Below are positions 1,841-12,114 of a DNA stretch of 64,000 bases, in pieces. The DNA comes from Chlamydoabsidia padenii. Lineage: Eukaryota > Mucoromycota > Mucoromycetes > Mucorales > Cunninghamellaceae. The stretch covers positions 1 through 64,000 of the forward strand of contig JAIWND010000060.1 in the NCBI GenBank assembly GCA_025330725.1, given 5' to 3'. Made by a program: the position numbers and the translations under genes. Each line of letters starts with the position of its first letter. The first letter of the stretch is position 1. The notes beneath the pieces were generated by a model that saw only the letters and a program-made list of their open reading frames with translations, searched no databases and had not been told where the DNA came from.

Positions 1841-1897
<57 letters not shown>
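1840..1897. repeat. (GTA)n trinucleotide microsatellite
   Basis: About 19 uninterrupted TAG/GTA triplets, followed by a degenerate tail (AGAAGAAAGTAGTAGAAG) to about 1920. It creates spurious poly-Val and poly-Thr open frames on the two strands. Confidence 0.9.
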
Positions 1898-2137
1898 AGA
1901 AGAAAGTAGTAGAAGTAGTATGTTGTATTATACATTCTTTTAACAATATGAAGTGCAATATTAATAAAAAAGCAAATCATTCCCCCTACGTATCAATATA
2001 ATAAAAAGCAAACGATGTATGTATAATAATGTAGTGGATAAAAATGTGCGTTTTTTATTTTTAAAAATGGTAGTAAAGCTTCTGTTTTGAGCACACTCCT
2101 GTTTTTCAAAAATAGTAGCTGCTACCCTTTTTTGCAC

Positions 2138-2914
2138 ATCTAAATATGATGATAGGTCTCAGATTTTAAATTATTATCCATCTCATGCAATTTTTTTTAA
2201 CATTCCATAATTTTTAAATATATCTTCTATTTCTTTTAAAATATCTTTTACATAAATATTATTTTTACAATTACTTATATTATTCACTTTTATAAAAAGT
2301 TTTATATATCTATATAATTTTTCACATAACTCATCATTTTTATAATCACTTTTAGATGTTTCTTTATCAATATTTTTATTCTTATTTATACTTACAACTT
2401 TTTTATTATCATAATTTATATTTGTAATAGTGTTTTTTTTATCTTTATCTTTATTTATAAAATCTAATTGTTCAGATATATGGCAAGGAGGAGAATTAAT
2501 ATTGTTATCAATATTATATTCAGATGAATTGTCATATGTCTTTGTATTTCCTTTGTTGATATTCTCATCATCTAATAATCTTCTTTTTTTAATATTATCT
2601 TTGTATTTTTGTTTTTTCTTTCTTCTTTTTATTTTATAGTCGATATAATAAATATCTGTTTTATTTTTCATAATATTAATTTTAAAAGATTTTGTAATCT
2701 CATCAAATTCTATATTTATTTTTTTTATATCATATTGTTCCATTTTTTTCATTATAAACATACGTTTTATATTTTTTAAAAATAAATCGTCATAAATTAT
2801 ATCCTCAAAATCTATATTATTGTCCATTTCAACTTTTTTTTATTTTTATCAAAATTCAATTTTTATCCATTTCGTACACTTTTTAAAATGTGAGAGTTAT
2901 CTTCATAATATACC
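2138..2914. mobile_element. 777-bp AT-rich element, copy 1
   Basis: The same 777-bp unit recurs at 9672-10448; all stretches I compared are identical, and the encoded proteins are identical. The ends were set by comparing the two loci. Here TTTTGCAC (2130-2137) is repeated at 2915-2922, an 8-bp target duplication. The ends form an imperfect inverted repeat: after the first five bases, 23 of the next 28 positions match (core TCTCA, then ATTTTAAA). It sits inside the CACTA element. Duplications of 8-9 bp are typical of hAT and Mutator-like transposons, but no known terminal motif identifies the superfamily. Confidence 0.75.
2183..2827 (-). CDS. Unrecognised 214-aa Lys/Asn/Ile-rich protein of the 777-bp element (copy 1)
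   Basis: One long frame fills the element, ending 45 bp inside the left end and starting 87 bp inside the right end. It begins MDNNIDFEDIIYDDLFLKNI and ends with TAA. Composition is extreme (Lys, Asn, Ile, Asp dominate, no Trp), unlike any host gene here, whose coding regions are far less AT-rich. Visible features are a basic block, KIKRRKKKQKYKDNIKKRR, that could be a nuclear localisation signal, a low-complexity Asn-rich middle, and a probably helical C-terminus. An open frame of this length in such AT-rich DNA suggests selection or recent origin. I do not recognise a domain and give no function. Confidence 0.5.
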   Translation of the reverse strand: MDNNIDFEDIIYDDLFLKNIKRMFIMKKMEQYDIKKINIEFDEITKSFKINIMKNKTDIYYIDYKIKRRKKKQKYKDNIKKRRLLDDENINKGNTKTYDNSSEYNIDNNINSPPCHISEQLDFINKDKDKKNTITNINYDNKKVVSINKNKNIDKETSKSDYKNDELCEKLYRYIKLFIKVNNISNCKNNIYVKDILKEIEDIFKNYGMLKKIA

Positions 2915-3020
2915 TTTTGCACTGTAGAATATCATATCTACCATTTTTGAGCATAGTAAAAAATGGTAGTTATGTGCCAAAAGTAGTAACATAGCTACTA
3001 TTATTTCCGCCATAGTGATT

Positions 3021-4111
3021 TATCAAGACAACATGGGAACTTCTTTTACAAGTGAAACTTTGTGCTTCAAACATTCAAAATCAAGAAGGCTCCTGGAACT
3101 GAAATCTTTTGATCCATCTAAGGATACACCAGTGGAAATCTTACACACGGTACTTTTGGGTGTAGTCAAATACTTGATCAACCACTTGATGAAAACCATG
3201 TTGAAAAATGAAAACGAAAAAGTAAATCGACTAACAAGAAGATTGAAACATTACGAAGAAGCTGGTAGCTACGACCGTGCATTCCGGCGTAAAATGAATC
3301 ATTGTGGTTCCTTTTTGGGACGTGATTTCAAGTTACTAGTTCAGGTGTTGCCGGTGATTTTAGCCGAAGAATTTTCAAGCGACGAAAACATCAAACCAAT
3401 TATTGAACCTTTCTGCTGCCTTGGTGATCTGTCATCTTTGATTTTTGTCAGGGCCATCGAAAAAAAATTCAATGACTATGTAGATGAAGTTGGATCGGCG
3501 ATTCAAAAGTTGATTTTTTCTCTTCATCACTTTGATGTCTCTACGAACAATGCCGACGCTTTCAGTTACAAGCCAAAAGTCCACATTCTGCAACATCTTC
3601 CTGAAGACATTAAGCGATTTGGATGTCCATTACATTTTGAAACCGAACGAGGGGAAATGTTTAACAAGTTTATAAGGGAGCATATAACCCACACAAACAG
3701 ACATAATCCCAACAGGGACATTGCTATCAAATTTGGTAAACAAGTCATGCTTCGCCATATTATGGATGGTGGTTCATGGGCGCATGACGATGGCTTTCGA
3801 CGGAAGATGGGACCTGAAGCAGAGTCTTGGCTTGAAAAACTTGGTGATTCTTTTTCCAACGCGCTTCTTGGTGGAAGAGAATTTGTGGACAATAACAACA
3901 GCCACAAAAAAATCAGGAATAAGATGCATGGTGTATTTTCATTGGAAAGTCTATAGCAAATGAAAAGCCATATTTTGTCGGGGAAGTGATTAAATTTGAT
4001 GCTGGTATGCTGGTTCAGAAGTATGTAATCGATTCTGGTATTGATGATGGCAAGTGCTACCAAACTGTTAGACCAACTGAATCAATGCTACCCCTATTGA
4101 TCTTGATTTAA
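3021..4111 (+). pseudogene. Tnp2-like (CACTA-type) transposase gene, 3' part
   Basis: This continues the frame broken at 242. Motifs include DTPVEILHTVLLGVVKYL near the start, matching the conserved D-PVE-LH--LLG--KY block of fungal Tnp2-like transposases, and KPKVHILQHLPEDIKRFG plus FETERGEMFNKFIREH in the C-terminal half. The frame reaches a stop at 3956. A second frame starting around 3945 continues with GKSIANEKPYFVGEVIKFDA to a TAA at 4109-4111, so a frameshift or lost intron separates the last ~55 codons. With the 2.8-kb insertion upstream the gene is dead. Family assignment comes from remembered motifs, not a search. Confidence 0.6.
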
Positions 4112-4497
4112 AATTAGTAATTGATATCCACACCAAAAACTGGCAAGGTCTACATATGATCAACACATCCAAATTCAATAGCTTTTGGTTTTTCAGGCAC
4201 AACTTAAAACACATACATTAGATACATCTTTTTACCTTCTTTTTTTTCTCTTTTTTCTTCTTCTTTCTATCATCCGCTTTTACACATCACATTATAGATC
4301 ATCTTTTTTTTCATTCCTTTTACACAATACATTCATAGATCATCATCTTTTTTTTGCATGAATGAGCCTCGCTTTCAAATCCCGCCAACAATGAGATCGC
4401 CCCTATTTCTTGTTTTTTTTTCCTAAATCGGTTGAATTTCCGCTTTATCTGGAGCTAGTTACCATAAACGGTGTTGAAGTAGCACGAATAAGACCTT
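4112..4497. other. Non-coding, pyrimidine-rich stretch
   Basis: No gene seen. It has T/CT-rich tracts (4220-4350) with two near-copies of a CACA-ATTATAGATCATC-like sentence, then unrelated sequence leading into the Harbinger end remnant at about 4498. Confidence 0.5.
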
Positions 4498-4877
4498 TCC
4501 TCCCAAACTCTAAAATCCCAAAAAAGAAAAGGTTTGTTGCACGGCGAGACCTAAAAAAAGTAACGGCGAGACGACTTGTGGTAAATGTTTATCCGATTGG
4601 CGAGACGGTTTTTAGCCAATGAGAAGCGATAAAAATCAGGATCCTTAATCCATGGTCTGGAGGTGGTTTAAGTCTCGCCATCCTTACTAAACAACCCCCA
4701 CAACGGGATTTAAATAAAAAATCGGTCTTTTTCAACTCACTTTTTTTTACTCTTCTTCCGTTCACTTTCCTTTTTCAACTTTAACTCGTGCAAAAAAAAA
4801 AGAGTTAAAAAGAGGGCCCAACCTATTTTCTACATACTCTTTTTATTTTACTTATCTCACTTTATTATACTCGCAAA

Positions 4878-5375
4878 ATGCCTCGAAACAACTGGAACGA
4901 CGAAGAAACTCAAGCCCTTATTGCTGCAATGGCTCTCCATTACAGGTCCATTGAAACAGTAAACAGCAATCATTCCAAGAATGAAGACATATTTTGAAAC
5001 AACCATGGGTGCAAGAAGTGTTGGTAGAACTCTGGACACTATCAAGCACAAGTGGGCCATCTTGATAAGAAAGTTCAAGGATATCAACGATGCCGTCCGG
5101 CGAACTGGAAGTGGTGGCCTGCCAGGTCAACAGGTGGGCGCACTACGATGCCATACTCGACATCCTCCGCGATGATCCCAATGTTTTCCCTGTGGTAAAA
5201 TTGGATTCTCTCCGGCCTGAGACTTTGGTCAACCTACTGGATGTAAACGAAAATGAAGAAGACGAAGAAAACGAAGTTGACCAAGAGGGGGAAAGAAGGG
5301 GTCATCCTCGTCGTAGCGTTTCTTTTTTTTCTCCGACACCAACTTCAGCATCAGCACCAACTCCAGCACCAACTC

Positions 5376-5425
<50 letters not shown>

Positions 5426-5665
5426 ACCAGACGCCGGCAACGTTTAACGGGTAGTATTCGTGACTCTGTGGTGGCAAGCTTTGTGGACGAAGGGATATTG
5501 CACCGTGACCATACCGCCAGGTTATTCACGAAGTTCAATGAAGCCGCACGCCAAAGACAAGGTGAACTTCTCGCTCATCATCAAGTTGTCGAGGAACAAA
5601 GGTCTCGGGAACGTCAGCAAATCATTGGTCTTCTGGAGCGACTAATCCAACCAGTGTTTAGGTAG
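4878..5665 (+). pseudogene. Harbinger ORF1, SANT/Myb-like DNA-binding protein (copy A, frameshifted)
   Basis: The start MPRNNWNDEETQALIAAM at 4878 is a SANT/trihelix-type opening. Compared with copy B, 14 bp are missing after AATGAAG at about 4983, which shifts the frame; the helix-rich core (GARSVGRTLD...KHKWAILIRKFKDIND) continues in one frame and the remainder, from 5090, in another. The latter ends with an acidic stretch, a Pro/Thr/Ala repeat encoded by CAACAG units (5385-5423) and a Gln/Arg-rich helical tail. In this superfamily the Myb-like protein binds element DNA and helps the transposase enter the nucleus. Confidence 0.65.
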
Positions 5666-5936
5666 CCAACGCCTATTTACTACCCACCTACACCATCTAG
5701 AATACAATCACCATCGCCTTCACCATCTTCATCTTCATTTCGCCCTCCTGCCCCCCGTGTCCCAACCCGATCACCATCCACCCATCCTACTATGCCCCCA
5801 TCCCATCCCCATCAAGATAACTAGTTTTTATACATCCTTTATTAAATAAAAAATCTTTTTATCTATCTATCTATCTATTTTGTTATTGTTGTTGTAAACA
5901 TGTAGTTTATATAAATGATCGTTTATTAAAAAAAAA

Positions 5937-8020
5937 TCAATCTAACACCATTCCATCCAACAACACCCTAATCTGCTCCCTTCGTTCGATTCCATTCGGA
6001 AGATCCGAGACGCTGTCGTCTGCGTGTATGTCCATGTTGTTGTCCGTTTCACCCATACCATCCATGGTACTTGTTGCGGTGGGCGTAGGTGAATGTGGTT
6101 GCAGACTTTCGGCAGCCTCTTGTTGTAGTATGGCTTCAGGGATAATGCCGTTCTGATCTATGCAAATGTTATGCAGGATACAAGAAACGAATATGGTCAT
6201 CCCTTGCCGTATTTCATTCGTAAGGTAAAGATGCAACCCAATAAAACGCCAACGAGCCACAAGAAGACCAAAAGCCCTTTCTATTGCCATTCTTGTAGAT
6301 GAGTGGACCTTTGTAGAATATGGGTTTTTGTAGAATGAAAATGGATGTATGCAAAATAAAAAATAAAGACAAGTACGGTGAGAATCCTTCCTAGCCTTTA
6401 TTTGTCAAGAGTAAAAGTAGATGAAGAAAAATATGTTAACGGGAGAAGAGAACTATTTATACATGTATGTGATTTTATGGGACGAGTAGTAAGGACCAAT
6501 TGCAATCATTAATTGATCATGAAGTTACGATGGAAAGTTTTCTTTTGATGTGATGTATCATGGAAAGAATCGTTCTGTCTTGTAATGGTGTGATACGGTG
6601 TTTGTATTGAAACCCCGCATGACAGAACGTTCTTTTTCTTTTTTCTTTTTTTTTTCTCTTTGTTAAATGACCGTTCCATTATTACTTTCATGATCATATC
6701 ATACCATATGAATAGATCATGATGTTTCTCTTTCTATAATCATTTAACTTGTGAGTTTTTGTTCATACGATCGGAGACAGACTGACTGTGTCGATCGTCG
6801 ATCTCTTTTATATTTTAAATCCCGCTTCGAGGCATGATGCTTCGGGGCGGGCTTTATCTTTTATTAATTGAATTTTGCATGATACGACAACCTTGTTGAA
6901 CTTCTTTTGAGAAGGTGTCGCTTGGCGTCTTGGGTATGGTGTAATCACATACCGTTGCAGTGGATATGCAGAAGCTTATATATCAATAATAAAAAAAAAG
7001 AGAAAGAGAGAGAGATTAGTTTGATATGTAATGAACATTCTGTATTTGATTGTGTTACTGTACCTGCGATAATGAAGCTGTTGTTGGGGCACATTCTACT
7101 GCCTGATTCTTGTATCAAATCATAAAGATGACTGCGACGGAATGCCCTAATCATAGCATTAATCCAATGGTTAATAAATGAGTTTATGCTTTGTTCCTAC
7201 TGTAATTATTACCTGGATTTCCAGTATACCCATATGTAAATCGAAGATCACCATCACAAATCGCCGTCAAGTTCATCGAGAGGTTCCCTTTTCGGTCCCG
7301 GTAGTATTCGGAGTGGGCATTATAAGGCTTGAATATGTTGACAAGTTTACCGTCCAAGGCACCAATTACACCACCAGGAAGTCGACCACGAATCACACCT
7401 TCAGAATCAGGGCGAGCAGTAAAACTGGCATTGGTACGGCGCACCTCGCTTTCCGTTGTTGGCCAGTGTATCTTGTGTTTGAAGCAGTCCACCATTGCCA
7501 CCAAGAACCGGGTGATGAAGTTCATGTATGAGCCGTTGCTGATACCCATAGTATTTTTGACAATCCTATACCCCGCGTGCGTGTTTGTCATGCGCCAGAG
7601 AATTGTTGCCACTTGGATGTAACATGGTGTTTGAGGATAGGCAGGATTCCTGCTTTGATATACAGGATGTTGGGAAAGCGTGGCCACAAGCAAATTGAAT
7701 GTATCCCTGTTGACCCTATAGTTGGCGTGATAGCTACTGTCGAGACGAGTGTCGTCCAACCCAGGATGTACAATATCCCAGTAGCCGGTGTTGTTGGTGG
7801 TGGTATATGTTGCATAGAAGGAGCCAGAATAGCAGGCCATGGCTGCTGTGTACGCATTGTCGATTCTAATGCGGTACTGGAGAGAGTCGACTTGAAGAGC
7901 AAATTGAGTGCGAAGTTGTTCTTGTTCTTCACGGATGTCATATCCTTCATTTTCGTTTTCGCAAAGGAGATCTAAGATTACAGGAATTAGTTGTTGCATA
8001 TCCATGTTGAGAGGTTCCAT
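5937..8020 (-). pseudogene. PIF/Harbinger DDE transposase (copy A), split by a solo LTR
   Basis: Starts MEPLNMDMQQLIPVILDLL (ATG at 8018-8020). Conserved elements are GALDGKLVNIFKPYN (first catalytic Asp), CDGDLRFTYGYTGNPG before the second block, and the C-terminal TRMAIERAFGLLVARWRFIG helix. The expected HD after GNPG reads H-N-S-F with an extra base, and the block normally written DSAYPL reads ASAYPL across the last intron, so two catalytic acids appear lost. Copy B shares both changes. The LTR at 6312-6889 lies in the last exon. Unlike copy B, this copy keeps the tryptophan codons in GYWDI and ARWRF. Confidence 0.7.
6312..6889 (-). mobile_element. Solo LTR (578 bp) in Harbinger copy A
   Basis: Read on the minus strand the unit starts TGTCGTATCATG and ends ATATTCTACA, the TG...CA form of an LTR. 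It is flanked by a 5-bp ACCTT duplication (6307-6311, 6890-6894). Copy B has the uninterrupted site GTGGACCTTGTTGAAC near 26326, a natural empty site. A close copy (575 bp, opposite orientation) is at 11406-11980. Retained LTR landmarks are a TATA-like TATAAATAG and an AATAAAGG polyadenylation-type word, both on the minus strand. No internal retroelement sequence is left, so it formed by LTR-LTR recombination. Confidence 0.93.
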
Positions 8021-8105
8021 AATAATAATAATAAGACAGAGGGTTGAGAAATAATGATATGAGTTTTTATTACAAAAAATACGCTTCTTATATACTAGTG
8101 TGAGC

Positions 8106-8407
8106 TGAGATGTCTGTATAAAATACGAGGTTTCAATGTATCTTTTATTATGAGATAAAGTAAAGAGAAAAAAAAGTAACTCTTTGTTATGACATCTGTA
8201 TAAAAAAAAATTCATCTTCGGCTGAGCCTAATTTCATTGGCTCTGCCTCATCTTCATCTTGTACCTGCATTTCTGAGTTTATAATCAAGTTATAGATGTG
8301 CAATACAAAAAAAATAAAAAAAAAACCTGCCTTGTTTGCTTATAGATCAAACAAGACAATAAAAAACAATAAAAAAAGTAAAGTAAAGATAAATGCCGGA
8401 TACGACA
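8106..8407 (-). repeat. 3' LTR of the Ty3 element (302 bp)
   Basis: Nearly identical to 12140-12441, with same total length and only small A-run or single-base indels, so the element is young. Read on the minus strand it has TG...CA ends. Confidence 0.88.
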
Positions 8408-8858
8408 TTACTCCCCACCAGTCTTCGACGTCCATCATTTTCTAGTGTAACGGCGTTTAGATTTAGTTATGGGGTGATCAGTTTCATTAGCATTTCTTTT
8501 GGCTGATCGCTTATTTCTGACTCTAGACGTTTGCTGCACCTGACCTGTTAATTGTCTCCAATACAGTGTGATTATTTCTTGTCGTATACGGCAGTAGTTT
8601 ATTTTTATTTTATTTTTTATTGAAGTGATTGATCTCGAAGTGAGCAATCAAGTCAAGTTTTTATTTTTATTTTTTCAGGAACCATACAAGTATATCCGTA
8701 TGGTAACACAGTAGTTGAAGATGATCACATTCGGACTACGAATGTGGGGGCTTAACTGATGGGACAAACACTTATTAGAGATAGAAAAACAGTAACAGAC
8801 TTTTTTTCTTCTTCACTTGAATAAACAAGCTCATTACGTCTCGTAATCACGTCCCATA

Positions 8859-9117
8859 TCACATTTCTTGACTATAAAAGTTATCTTCAGGTTCCCAAGA
8901 ATTATGTACATCTGCATAGTTTGCCCATTTAACTTTATACTCATATGTATTAGTCTCTGGATTTTTTCTGTGAGCTAATATTCTTTCAACTTCATAAGCA
9001 TTGTTGCCTTTATGTTCAGGTACTCTAACTTCTTTTAGTTCTTCCACTGTGTAATTTCTGTGCAGCTTATCTCCTTCTAGATCTTTTAACACGTAAGTTC
9101 CTGCTTGTGTTTTTCTG
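8859..9117 (-). pseudogene. Ty3 integrase C-terminus with chromodomain
   Basis: On the minus strand the sequence reads GPYQVIRKTQAGTYVLKDLE, the end of a Ty3-type integrase. It continues to a chromodomain of about 55 residues (NAYEVERILAHRKN..., YKVKWANYADVHNSWEPEDN) with the aromatic cage pattern (Y..E and W...Y...NSWEP). Chromodomains on integrases tether insertion to modified histones. Only this tail survives; the catalytic integrase is deleted, so it is a remnant joined out of frame to the protease fragment. Confidence 0.82.
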
Positions 9118-9118
9118 A

Positions 9119-9517
9119 TTACTTGGTATGGACCTTCATAGGAGGAGTTACAGGTAACAAAGGGGTGTAGCCGTAGCTATTAATCGTAACACCAGCATTT
9201 GCTAGTAGGATAGGTTTTGCCTTGACATGAGGGATAATTGAAATATCATGTAAGACACAGAATTTTTTGTTTATTGCCGAGAAGTTCGCACCACTATCCA
9301 CTAAAGCTACTATTGGCTCTTCCTGTAGATAGAGAGGGACATTAATTTCAGCATCACACAATCTGCCAAGACTCATAGCGTTCTTGTTATTTTCATTTAA
9401 CTTACATGGGAGCTTATCACCAACAGTGGCTTTGCCCCTAAATACCGCTGCCAAACGATATTCTTCATCACGTTCAGCATCACGTTCAGCCTTACGCTGA
9501 GCATCATCTCGCTTCAC
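9119..9517 (-). pseudogene. Ty3 retropepsin-like protease region
   Basis: The frame contains IVALVDSGANFSAINKKFC, the active-site D-S-G of a retroviral-type aspartic protease, and a second hydrophobic strand region (NSYGYTPLLPV). The upstream portion is charged linker (RKAERDAERDEEYR). The frame ends within a few codons after the protease, where the polymerase is deleted. Upstream on this strand the Gag nucleocapsid region is interrupted by the 777-bp element at 9672. Confidence 0.75.
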
Positions 9518-9671
9518 CGCATCAGAGTACTTGGCGGCAGCACGGCTGACTTTTCGATCGAGTTGATGATGACTACGATTGCCGTAGTGACCCGAATGTT
9601 GTTGGTGGTGGTGGCCCTTGTTGTTGTTGCTGTTCTTGTTGTTTTGCGGCTGAAGCTGGTTATCAGCGGGT

Positions 9672-10448
9672 ATCTAAATATGATGATAGGTCTCAGATTT
9701 TAAATTATTATCCATCTCATGCAATTTTTTTTAACATTCCATAATTTTTAAATATATCTTCTATTTCTTTTAAAATATCTTTTACATAAATATTATTTTT
9801 ACAATTACTTATATTATTCACTTTTATAAAAAGTTTTATATATCTATATAATTTTTCACATAACTCATCATTTTTATAATCACTTTTAGATGTTTCTTTA
9901 TCAATATTTTTATTCTTATTTATACTTACAACTTTTTTATTATCATAATTTATATTTGTAATAGTGTTTTTTTTATCTTTATCTTTATTTATAAAATCTA
10001 ATTGTTCAGATATATGGCAAGGAGGAGAATTAATATTGTTATCAATATTATATTCAGATGAATTGTCATATGTCTTTGTATTTCCTTTGTTGATATTCTC
10101 ATCATCTAATAATCTTCTTTTTTTAATATTATCTTTGTATTTTTGTTTTTTCTTTCTTCTTTTTATTTTATAGTCGATATAATAAATATCTGTTTTATTT
10201 TTCATAATATTAATTTTAAAAGATTTTGTAATCTCATCAAATTCTATATTTATTTTTTTTATATCATATTGTTCCATTTTTTTCATTATAAACATACGTT
10301 TTATATTTTTTAAAAATAAATCGTCATAAATTATATCCTCAAAATCTATATTATTGTCCATTTCAACTTTTTTTTATTTTTATCAAAATTCAATTTTTAT
10401 CCATTTCGTACACTTTTTAAAATGTGAGAGTTATCTTCATAATATACC
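9672..10448. mobile_element. 777-bp AT-rich element, copy 2
   Basis: Second copy of the unit at 2138-2914, same length and same orientation, with no difference found. Its 9-bp target duplication TCAGCGGGT (9663-9671, 10449-10457) is exact. It is inserted in the Gag-Pol interior of the Ty3 element. Taken with copy 1, which is inside a CACTA element, this gives two independent insertions, so it is a mobile unit and not a segmental duplication. Confidence 0.85.
9717..10361 (-). CDS. Unrecognised 214-aa Lys/Asn/Ile-rich protein of the 777-bp element (copy 2)
   Basis: Amino-acid identical to the protein of copy 1 over all 214 residues. An intact frame in both copies means either very recent spread from one source or a requirement for the protein in mobilisation. 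The predicted product is basic, mostly polar, with three scattered Cys (PPCHIS, ELCEKL, ISNCKN) and a helical C-terminal third. No catalytic signature is visible to me. Confidence 0.5.
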   Translation of the reverse strand: MDNNIDFEDIIYDDLFLKNIKRMFIMKKMEQYDIKKINIEFDEITKSFKINIMKNKTDIYYIDYKIKRRKKKQKYKDNIKKRRLLDDENINKGNTKTYDNSSEYNIDNNINSPPCHISEQLDFINKDKDKKNTITNINYDNKKVVSINKNKNIDKETSKSDYKNDELCEKLYRYIKLFIKVNNISNCKNNIYVKDILKEIEDIFKNYGMLKKIA

Positions 10449-12114
10449 TCAGCGGGTTTACCACAAATGTGACCCCTCACAAACTTCTCACCACAACCAC
10501 GTCTGCAGTAGATACCACCAGAGGGATAGGTACCCATGGGTCCAGGTCCACGTTCATGTTGGTTCTAGGTACCGTCTCTGCGGCGAGGCTCATCCGTCCT
10601 ACGTCGCTTATGTGAGTTGGCAACTTGGGCACCAAACTTGCTAGGAGACAGTTCCAAGTCAGCAGCGAAGGAGGCCATTTCCTTGGTAGTCTTCTTGATA
10701 AAGGACGCAGCATCTTCCTTTACCATCATGGACAACTTGCTACGCCAATGAGAAGGCAAGTTGTTGAAGTTGAAGAAGAAGGTCATCATCGCCATGGTTG
10801 ACTCGTCAACTTCCAAGTCGTTCAAAGTGACTTCCCATCTATGAAAATAATCCTCCCCGGACTCATTGTCACGAGGGGTAAGTTCTGTTAAAGCCAGCAA
10901 ATTTCTTACCTTCTGCTTGGGAGTGTGGTTGAACTCATACAACCATTGAGTGACCAAAGACCAGGTTTCAGTTTGTCCCTGTCTGGCCAACAAGGCGCGT
11001 TTTGTTTATACGATTTACCAAGAATAAGTGGCAAAAATCGCTTATACTCTCTCTCCACATCCACACGGTGAAGGTTCATCACCTCTTCCAAACGAGTGAC
11101 AAAACTTGTGACGTTATACATCACCACGGCACACTTCACATCCACCTTTTCCTTGGCAGAGACGAGAATAGGTAAGTCTTCCACCGAAGGTTGGTGCACA
11201 ATACTGGCACCGGTGGCAGTTATGGTGCTGTTGGGGTTGTTGTTGTTATTATTGGCAACAAAACCTTCCAAAGGGAAACGGCGGGCAGCTGTTTGTCGGA
11301 ATTTCTCCAACAGCTCAAACTTGGCCATGGCTTGATTGAGAAGCTCATTATACTCGTCTTCTCGTTCATCATCATGACGAAGCCTGCTTGCAGCTTCTTG
11401 GGCGGTGTCGTATCATGTAAAATTCAATTAATAAAAGATAAAGCCCGCCCCGAAGCATCATGCCTCGAAGCGGGACTTAAAATATAAAAGAGATCGACGA
11501 TCGACACAGTCAGTCTGTCTCCGATCGTATGAACAAAAACTCACAAGTTAAATGATTATAGAAAGAGAAACATCATGATCTATTCATATGGTATGATATG
11601 ATCATGAAAGTGATAATGGAACGGTCATTTAACAAAGAGAAAAAAAAGAAAAAAGAAAAAGAACGTTCTGTCATGCGGGGTTTCAATACAAACACCGTAT
11701 CACACCATTACAAGACAGAACGATTCTTTCCATGATACATCGCATCAAAAGAAACTTTCCATCGTAACTTCATGATCAATTAATGATTGCAATTGGTCCT
11801 TACTACTCGTCCCATAAAATCACATACATGTATAAATAGTTCTCTTCTCCCGTTAACATATTTTTCTTCATCTACTTTTACTCTTGACAAATAAAGGCTA
11901 GGAAGGATTCTCACCGTACTTGTCTTTATTTTATATTTTACATACATCCATTTTCATTCTACAAAAACCCATATTTTACAGGCGGCCTCATAGCGACGCT
12001 TCAAAATGGCAACGTCTTCCTTGGCCTCAGCCACATCGCGCTCGTACTTCTGTTGAGGATCGTGTTCGATTTCCATGTCAACAGGAATGGTGGTGTTGTT
12101 GTTGTTGGATGCCA
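10449..12114 (-). pseudogene. Ty3 Gag, interrupted by a solo LTR
   Basis: On the minus strand Gag starts MASNNNNTTIPVDMEI (ATG near 12114), just 25 nt downstream of the 5' LTR. It runs through a coiled region (DVAILKRRYEAAQEAASRL) up to the solo LTR at 11406-11980, resumes (NELLNQAMAKFELLEKF), and has capsid-like segments (WSLVTQWLYEFNHTPKQKVR, DYFHRWEVTLNDLEVDES). A frame break near 10980 divides it. Toward the 3' end a CGEKFVRGHICGKP zinc-knuckle-like stretch overlaps the 777-bp insertion site. No clear tRNA primer-binding site follows the LTR. Confidence 0.72.
11406..11980 (+). mobile_element. Solo LTR (575 bp) inside Gag
   Basis: Starts TGTCGTATCATG, ends CATATTTTACA, with an exact 5-bp GGCGG duplication (11401-11405, 11981-11985). 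It matches the solo LTR at 6312-6889 (opposite orientation) with few differences. Removing it and one GGCGG restores the Gag frame (...RRYEAAQEAA...). TATAAATAG and AATAAAGG landmarks are near its 3' half. Confidence 0.93.

Follow-up and report, generated by a model that had tools for sequence, protein, structure and literature searches.

Transposons of the PIF/Harbinger type carry two proteins, a transposase and a second, DNA-binding helper. Here we describe a 777-bp mobile element in a 64,000-nucleotide stretch of the fungus Chlamydoabsidia padenii (assembly GCA_025330725.1, contig JAIWND010000060.1, positions 1 to 64,000; called the window below), which probably derives from another superfamily of DNA transposons, Merlin, by loss of the transposase. 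Passages of PMC8101967 describe Merlin elements as having terminal inverted repeats of 24–462 bp, terminal GG and target-site duplications (TSDs) of 8 or 9 bp, and report them in Mucoromycota and also in microsporidia. In the same passages, the IS1595 family has a single transposase gene, the ends of one Merlin family are strongly diverged, with mismatches at 12 of 26 positions, and one family has an extra 1-kb open reading frame (ORF) that overlaps the transposase and runs against it, which was judged to be due to chance. Mutator-like elements (MULEs) have TSDs of 8–11 bp, and some carry accessory genes such as mudrB, MutB and vanC, as passages of PMC6446971 state. Miniature inverted-repeat transposable elements (MITEs) have no coding capacity according to a passage of PMC3517528.

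The element is present twice in the window as identical units, and nine complete copies were found in the whole assembly (34,228,448 bases in 95 contigs). Six are 777 bp long and identical, and three are 780 bp long and differ by a single 3-bp insertion, with no substitution among the nine. Two copies lie on each of contigs C57 (that of the window), C62 and C76, and one each on C3 (a 780-bp copy), C43 and C49; in addition, the very end of C62 holds 26 bases of the left end, too short for a certain tenth copy. GC content is 17.4% in the element and 38.5% in the window. All nine copies keep an intact frame of 214 codons, which occupies 645 of 777 bp and encodes the same protein on the minus strand of both window copies. 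The element has ends in common with a resident Merlin element on contig C66, and its protein, called the companion below, is homologous to a gene beside the Merlin transposase on contig C33. The first-pass annotation, which was made from the letters of the window, had already noticed the identical units with separate TSDs, the single frame and the AT-richness, and these observations were all borne out. The insertions and their ends in the window are:

2130..2137, no strand: TSD TTTTGCAC (8 bp) left of copy a, from TSD comparison and empty sites
2138..2914, minus strand (that of the ORF): copy a of the probable transposase-less Merlin-type element, identical to 9672-10448 and to four more 777-bp copies; empty sites L072 and L073
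2138..2170, plus strand: left terminus of copy a, reading ATCTA..., with the inverted repeat starting at 2145; matches the C66 Merlin right end at 22 of 33 positions
2882..2914, minus strand: right terminus of copy a, reading GGTAT... on this strand, with the inverted repeat reaching 2907; matches the C66 left end at 25 of 33 positions, outer GGTAT included
2915..2922, no strand: TSD TTTTGCAC (8 bp) right of copy a, from TSD comparison and empty sites
9663..9671, no strand: TSD TCAGCGGGT (9 bp) left of copy b, from TSD comparison and empty site
9672..10448, minus strand: copy b of the same probable Merlin-type element, from 777-bp identity; empty site L069, 97-98% identity
9672..9704, plus strand: left end of copy b, from end comparison and C66 match
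10416..10448, minus strand: right end of copy b, from end comparison and C66 match
10449..10457, no strand: TSD TCAGCGGGT (9 bp) right of copy b, from TSD comparison and empty site

The nine insertions are real and recent. TSD lengths of copies C57a, C57b, C3, C76a, C62b, C62a, C49, C76b and C43 are 8, 9, 8, 9, 9, 10, 9, 10 and 9 bp, respectively, and a TSD-like match arises by chance at 0.0165% of 200,000 random position pairs. Moreover, empty sites were found in paralogous repeats for both window copies, with an overlap of exactly 9 bp for copy b (L069, 97–98% identity) and exactly 8 bp for copy a (L072 and L073). The earlier proposal, a small transposon that was active not long ago and whose protein either takes part in transposition or is cargo, is supported; the copy count and TSD check that had been proposed with it gave the nine copies and the range of 8–10 bp.

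The inverted ends are imperfect, as had been reported with a length of about 28 bp: in copy a, positions 2145-2170 and 2882-2907 match at 22 of 26 positions. This repeat is set 7 bp inside the border, and in the outermost 7 bp only one position matches. In register, 23 of the first 35 positions match (mean 11.3 and maximum 22 in 200,000 shuffles). Two controls weigh against the end match, namely free local alignment of the 120-bp ends, which scored 36 with shuffles reaching up to 47, and interior pairs, 0.02% of 384,400 of which reached 23 of 35.

A 23-mer pattern of the ends gave one match on C66 and a second, inverted and looser match about 1.35 kb off (in the 3-kb stretch L066). Each of the two begins 7 bp inward of a border that adjoins CTAGAAAAG; the inverted repeat of the 777-bp element has the same 7-bp offset. 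The borders delimit a 1384-bp element (C66:57793-59176, 21.9% GC) with CTAGAAAAG as a 9-bp TSD on both sides and with the ends GGTATGATATGAAGATAAATCTCATATT and ATTCAGTTATGAACATAACTCTCATATATT. Its left end matches the GGTAT end of the 777-bp element at 25 of 33 positions in register, which none of 50,000 shuffles reached (maximum 22), and its right end matches the ATCTA end at 22 of 33 (reached by 0.002% of 50,000 shuffles); when the GGTAT end is instead compared crosswise with the right end of C66, the match is almost equal (24/33). Terminal bases are GG at one end and AT at the other in both elements. The C66 element encodes an intact-looking transposase of 287 aa, matching PF12762 (DDE_Tnp_IS1595) with E 7.1e-21 on a 331-aa frame and the NCBIfam IS1595 transposase model with E 1.8e-29. 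Hence, the search for a longer relative with the same ends, which the first-pass annotation had proposed, led to a Merlin element with similar ends in the same genome. The reading, based on 27-mer (up to 3 mismatches) and 23-mer end searches, that this genome has no partner with the same ends was overturned when the 23-mer match on C66 turned out to be the right end of that Merlin element.

Other Merlin transposases of the host have companion genes. PF12762 was found in at least five places of the genome (C66, C33, C67, C68 and C43), and all but C67 were analysed at the DNA level. The C33 element (C33:68337-70215, 1879 bp, 22.2% GC) has an 8-bp TSD GAAATTCC on both sides, GGCAA at the start of both ends, a transposase of 308 aa (PF12762, E 6e-19) and, tail to tail with it, a companion ORF of 249 aa. 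This companion aligns with the 214-aa family at both protein ends. Its profile score is 46.6 bits, with 5.9 for the best of 3000 shuffles; its N-terminal 65 residues score 28.6 bits (best of 3000 shuffles 13.2), and its C-terminal 60 residues 24.3 bits (best 12.9, none of 3000 higher). For the N-terminal part, hhalign gave a probability of 95% and E 2.3e-8, and BLASTP of the C33 companion to P0001, the database entry of the 214-aa protein, gave 27.6% identity over 232 aa with E 2.3e-5 (against 26 proteins alone). At C43, a transposase of 292 aa (PF12762, E 3.4e-17) is followed downstream on its own strand by a 94-aa companion with the N-terminal domain of the family (16.2 bits, best of 3000 shuffles 10.5; hhalign E 3.3e-4, probability 38%). 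In C66, the second ORF has 81 aa and lies downstream of the transposase on the same strand; it has the spaced F.K.IK..FI..Q residues of the family, and only this motif and its position would argue for homology. Thus, a second ORF accompanies the transposase in all three Merlin lineages examined, and for two of the three the tests show its homology to the 214-aa protein. The C68 element is 99.9% identical to that of C33 over the 1588 bases compared. The 8 bp that follow the element are its TSD GAAATTCC at C33 and CAAATTCC in the same place at C68, which possibly reflects a target preference.

From these data, the 777-bp unit is probably a transposase-less Merlin derivative, moved in trans by a Merlin transposase with the companion as helper. 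The unit would belong, as a non-autonomous element, to the Merlin (IS1595-type) superfamily. The Merlin elements of this host would consist of two genes, for a DDE transposase and for the companion, of which the derivative lost the first and kept the second. A transposase from a resident element whose ends are similar, C66 for example, may then act in trans on the 777-bp ends, in a cut-and-paste movement with a stagger of 8–10 bp. The companion may be a small nuclear protein, most likely nucleic-acid-binding through its conserved basic alpha-beta-beta-beta domain, which would assist the transposase, for example by marking the ends or bringing the enzyme to them.

The unit agrees with C66 in its TSDs (8 or 9 bp in seven of nine copies), in the 7-bp offset of its inverted repeat from the border and in having GG at one terminus, and the occurrence in Mucoromycota is also as the text of PMC8101967 gives for Merlin. 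The 26-bp imperfect repeat with GG and AT ends compares with at least 24 bp and terminal GG in Merlin. Unlike described Merlin elements, the unit has no PF12762 transposase, which is required only of autonomous members, and carries the companion gene alone; what marks a non-autonomous member, ends in common with a resident Merlin element, is found with C66. In addition, the unit resembles MITEs in being short, AT-rich and multi-copy, with inverted ends and presumed movement in trans, but its ORF is intact in 9/9 copies and homologous to Merlin companions.

Several points weigh against a Merlin derivative with a helper. TSDs of 10 bp in two of nine copies are outside the quoted Merlin range, and only one of the two ends starts with GG. 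A strict 27-mer end search of the host genome (at most 3 mismatches) found no partner. The C66 ends resemble those of the unit without being identical, and only one copy of C66 exists at near identity, so that C66 is not proven as the helper element. Its 81-aa ORF scores 6.2 bits against the family, which 121 of 3000 of its own shuffles match, with hhalign E 0.0074 and probability 5%, and it reads the opposite way relative to the GGTAT end. Moreover, the C33 family, recently active by its looks, has other ends.

A Mutator-like enzyme could also be considered as the mover, because TSDs of 8–10 bp are inside the 8–11 bp range of that superfamily (passages of PMC6446971) and the genome has 82 PF10551 matches (77 above cut-off, some being pieces of one gene). 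As resident controls we took copies that share one PF10551 score, seven of seven in family A and six of seven in family B, with a third group running past the stretch. TSDs in these two families are 9 bp in 13/13 copies (four by eye, nine computed) versus five of nine here (Fisher p 0.017), the ends of the unit are unlike those of either sampled family, and no MULE domain was found in the 214-aa protein. Weakened further by the ends in common with C66, movement by a Mutator-like enzyme is very improbable. Family A (L074 583-3973 on C16, and L075 on C24) is about 3.39 kb long with 99.9% identical copies, inverted ends of about 158 bp starting ACGAGACC and a 9-bp TSD in 7/7 copies examined. Family B (L076 501-3455 on C2, and L077 on C47) is about 2.96 kb long; the match between its two ends starts only about 8 bp inward of the border, and its TSD is 9 bp in 6/6 copies examined.

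The companion belongs to an unannotated family, which sequence comparison extends to relatives in Mucor and Cunninghamella. Its parts in the window are:

2183..2827, minus strand: companion ORF of copy a, 214 codons, a homologue of the C33 Merlin companion
2621..2809, minus strand: conserved N-terminal domain, residues 7-69, predicted alpha-beta-beta-beta, with blocks of 79-92 in predicted local distance difference test (pLDDT) over residues 11-70
2576..2629, minus strand: basic bipartite stretch like a nuclear localization signal (NLS), residues 67-84, a pattern recurrent across clusters
2210..2332, minus strand: predicted C-terminal two-helix hairpin, residues 166-206, pLDDT blocks 79-89, matched by the C33 companion C-terminal part
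9717..10361, minus strand: companion ORF of copy b, 214 codons, same frame as copy a

The database entry P0001 (215 aa, hypothetical protein BC941DRAFT_27741 [Chlamydoabsidia padenii]) is 100% identical over the query. The family comprises 26 clusters, one being the element's own protein, all with E<=1e-8 in a profile search that scored only the 7,986 candidates with most shared words; single-sequence search of protein databases recovered ten of them. Named species are Chlamydoabsidia padenii, Mucor hiemalis (P0003), Cunninghamella echinulata (P0005) and Cunninghamella blakesleeana (P0015), all Mucorales, and the other 22 clusters have no species name. The 214-aa protein was not placed by Pfam, PDB sequences or fold searches, the last of which the first-pass annotation had proposed. 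AlphaFold models from 22 and 24 sequences concur on a helix at residues 14–31 followed by three strands up to residue 65; in the whole model, a low-confidence middle (mainly 85–154) leads to the two-helix hairpin. Residues 21–30 have a mean column conservation of 0.89. The bipartite NLS pattern is a rule of thumb; it occurs within residues 51–110 in 20 of 26 clusters, at a like KRR place in 14, and in 13.6% of shuffles. The conserved basic helix with its strands, the NLS-like stretch and the company of a transposase together suggest a nuclear nucleic-acid-binding co-factor. That the 214-aa protein is the transposase itself is hardly credible, because its homologues adjoin a DDE transposase and because E30 and D42 are the only acidic residues conserved at >=90% (22- and 27-row alignments), with E8 invariant too among the first ten.

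Directly past the companion stop, the element encodes in another frame the peptide KKLHEMDNN, and the C-termini of relatives P0003 and P0002 are KKLHEMDN plus three and plus one residues, respectively. By this likeness, the region is conserved at the DNA level, or else a frameshift took place here in this lineage, and in both cases the last codons of the relatives would correspond to DNA about 40 bp from the element end. Three direct copies of GARATGGAYAAWAAT lie on the coding strand of the window copies at element positions 42, 85 and 731, the first ahead of the ORF, the second where it starts and the third beyond its stop. The expectation from shuffles is 0.01, but these same sites served to define the motif.

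The derivative kept the companion and lost the transposase, which suggests a companion that acts best from the copy it serves or is the limiting part; the gene may also be a simple remnant. A passenger that is intact because the copies are young is improbable: selection cannot be shown from nine near-identical copies, and relatives in other genera may sit in full two-gene elements, but a whole transposase gene was lost while the complete frame was kept, and the companion family is preserved between genera. The same element with a companion serving as an anti-silencing or copy-control protein of Merlins, without part in cutting or joining, is unlikely, if less so. Returning to the helper role, we tentatively consider, as somewhat less than an even chance, that mucoralean Merlins are two-component systems that require the companion, and that the 777-bp unit is a new type of hitchhiker which borrows the enzyme of other elements and supplies its own co-factor. 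If this is true, the companion would be a cis-preferring or limiting factor and, with its unplaced alpha-beta-beta-beta domain and helical tail, a new class of transposition protein.

A two-gene Merlin can be likened to PIF/Harbinger in having a transposase and a second protein, in another superfamily and with another TSD. Likewise, mudrB, MutB and vanC (passages of PMC6446971) are accessory genes on DNA transposons of another superfamily. In the titles and abstract openings of open-licence literature, we found no description of this element, of a two-gene Merlin or of a hitchhiker retaining the second gene only. The main text of PMC8101967 contains none of the terms accessory, additional ORF, two ORFs, second ORF, non-autonomous and MITE. 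That a second protein family accompanies Merlin transposases, and that it persists by itself in a mobile derivative, points to a co-factor overlooked so far. With a single transposase, a single companion and a substrate of 777 bp, the need for such a co-factor is testable in a small defined system, and a family of mucoralean 'hypothetical proteins' can now be named as transposon genes.

Single-protein searches of the host genome (E<=1) found only the nine copies and no host donor gene, as a Pack-MULE would have; such searches had missed the distant homologues later located beside Merlin transposases. The AT bias of the element had led to the suggestion of a possible foreign origin, from a Mollicutes-like endobacterium, a microsporidium or an organelle plasmid. 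In each of the 26 clusters, K+N+I is 41–55% of residues. Searches that did not address microsporidia and organelle plasmids as such gave no relative in 84,980 prokaryote species represented by a single genome each (pattern and tblastn), in IMG/VR (pattern and tblastn) or in plasmids and phages (tblastn). Because named relatives are all Mucorales, these scans were empty and the AT bias is common to the clusters and the resident Merlins, the suggestion found no support. That the unit is the satellite of some AT-rich plasmid or virus, or that its gene came from bacteria, would agree with 17.4% GC and with the 17 of 26 clusters without any contig of at least 2 kb. Set against the empty viral, phage, plasmid and prokaryote collections and the similar bias of resident Merlin elements (21.9% and 22.2% GC), it has the smallest probability that we assign to any explanation.

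Both window copies had also been placed inside other transposons. The flanks are indeed repeated, the left flank of copy b at one other place in the genome and the right flank of copy a at 14 other places, mostly partial. Pfam named none of three window flank ORFs, and the flanking repeats are therefore called only repeats here. Elsewhere, an ORF that adjoins copy C76a (C76:1-1551) contains a FAR1 domain (E 1.7e-6), and one that adjoins copy C62b (C62 near 63085) contains a reverse transcriptase domain (E 2.5e-24). About 240 bp left of copy a, window positions 1841-1897 consist of 19 TAG trinucleotides in a run.

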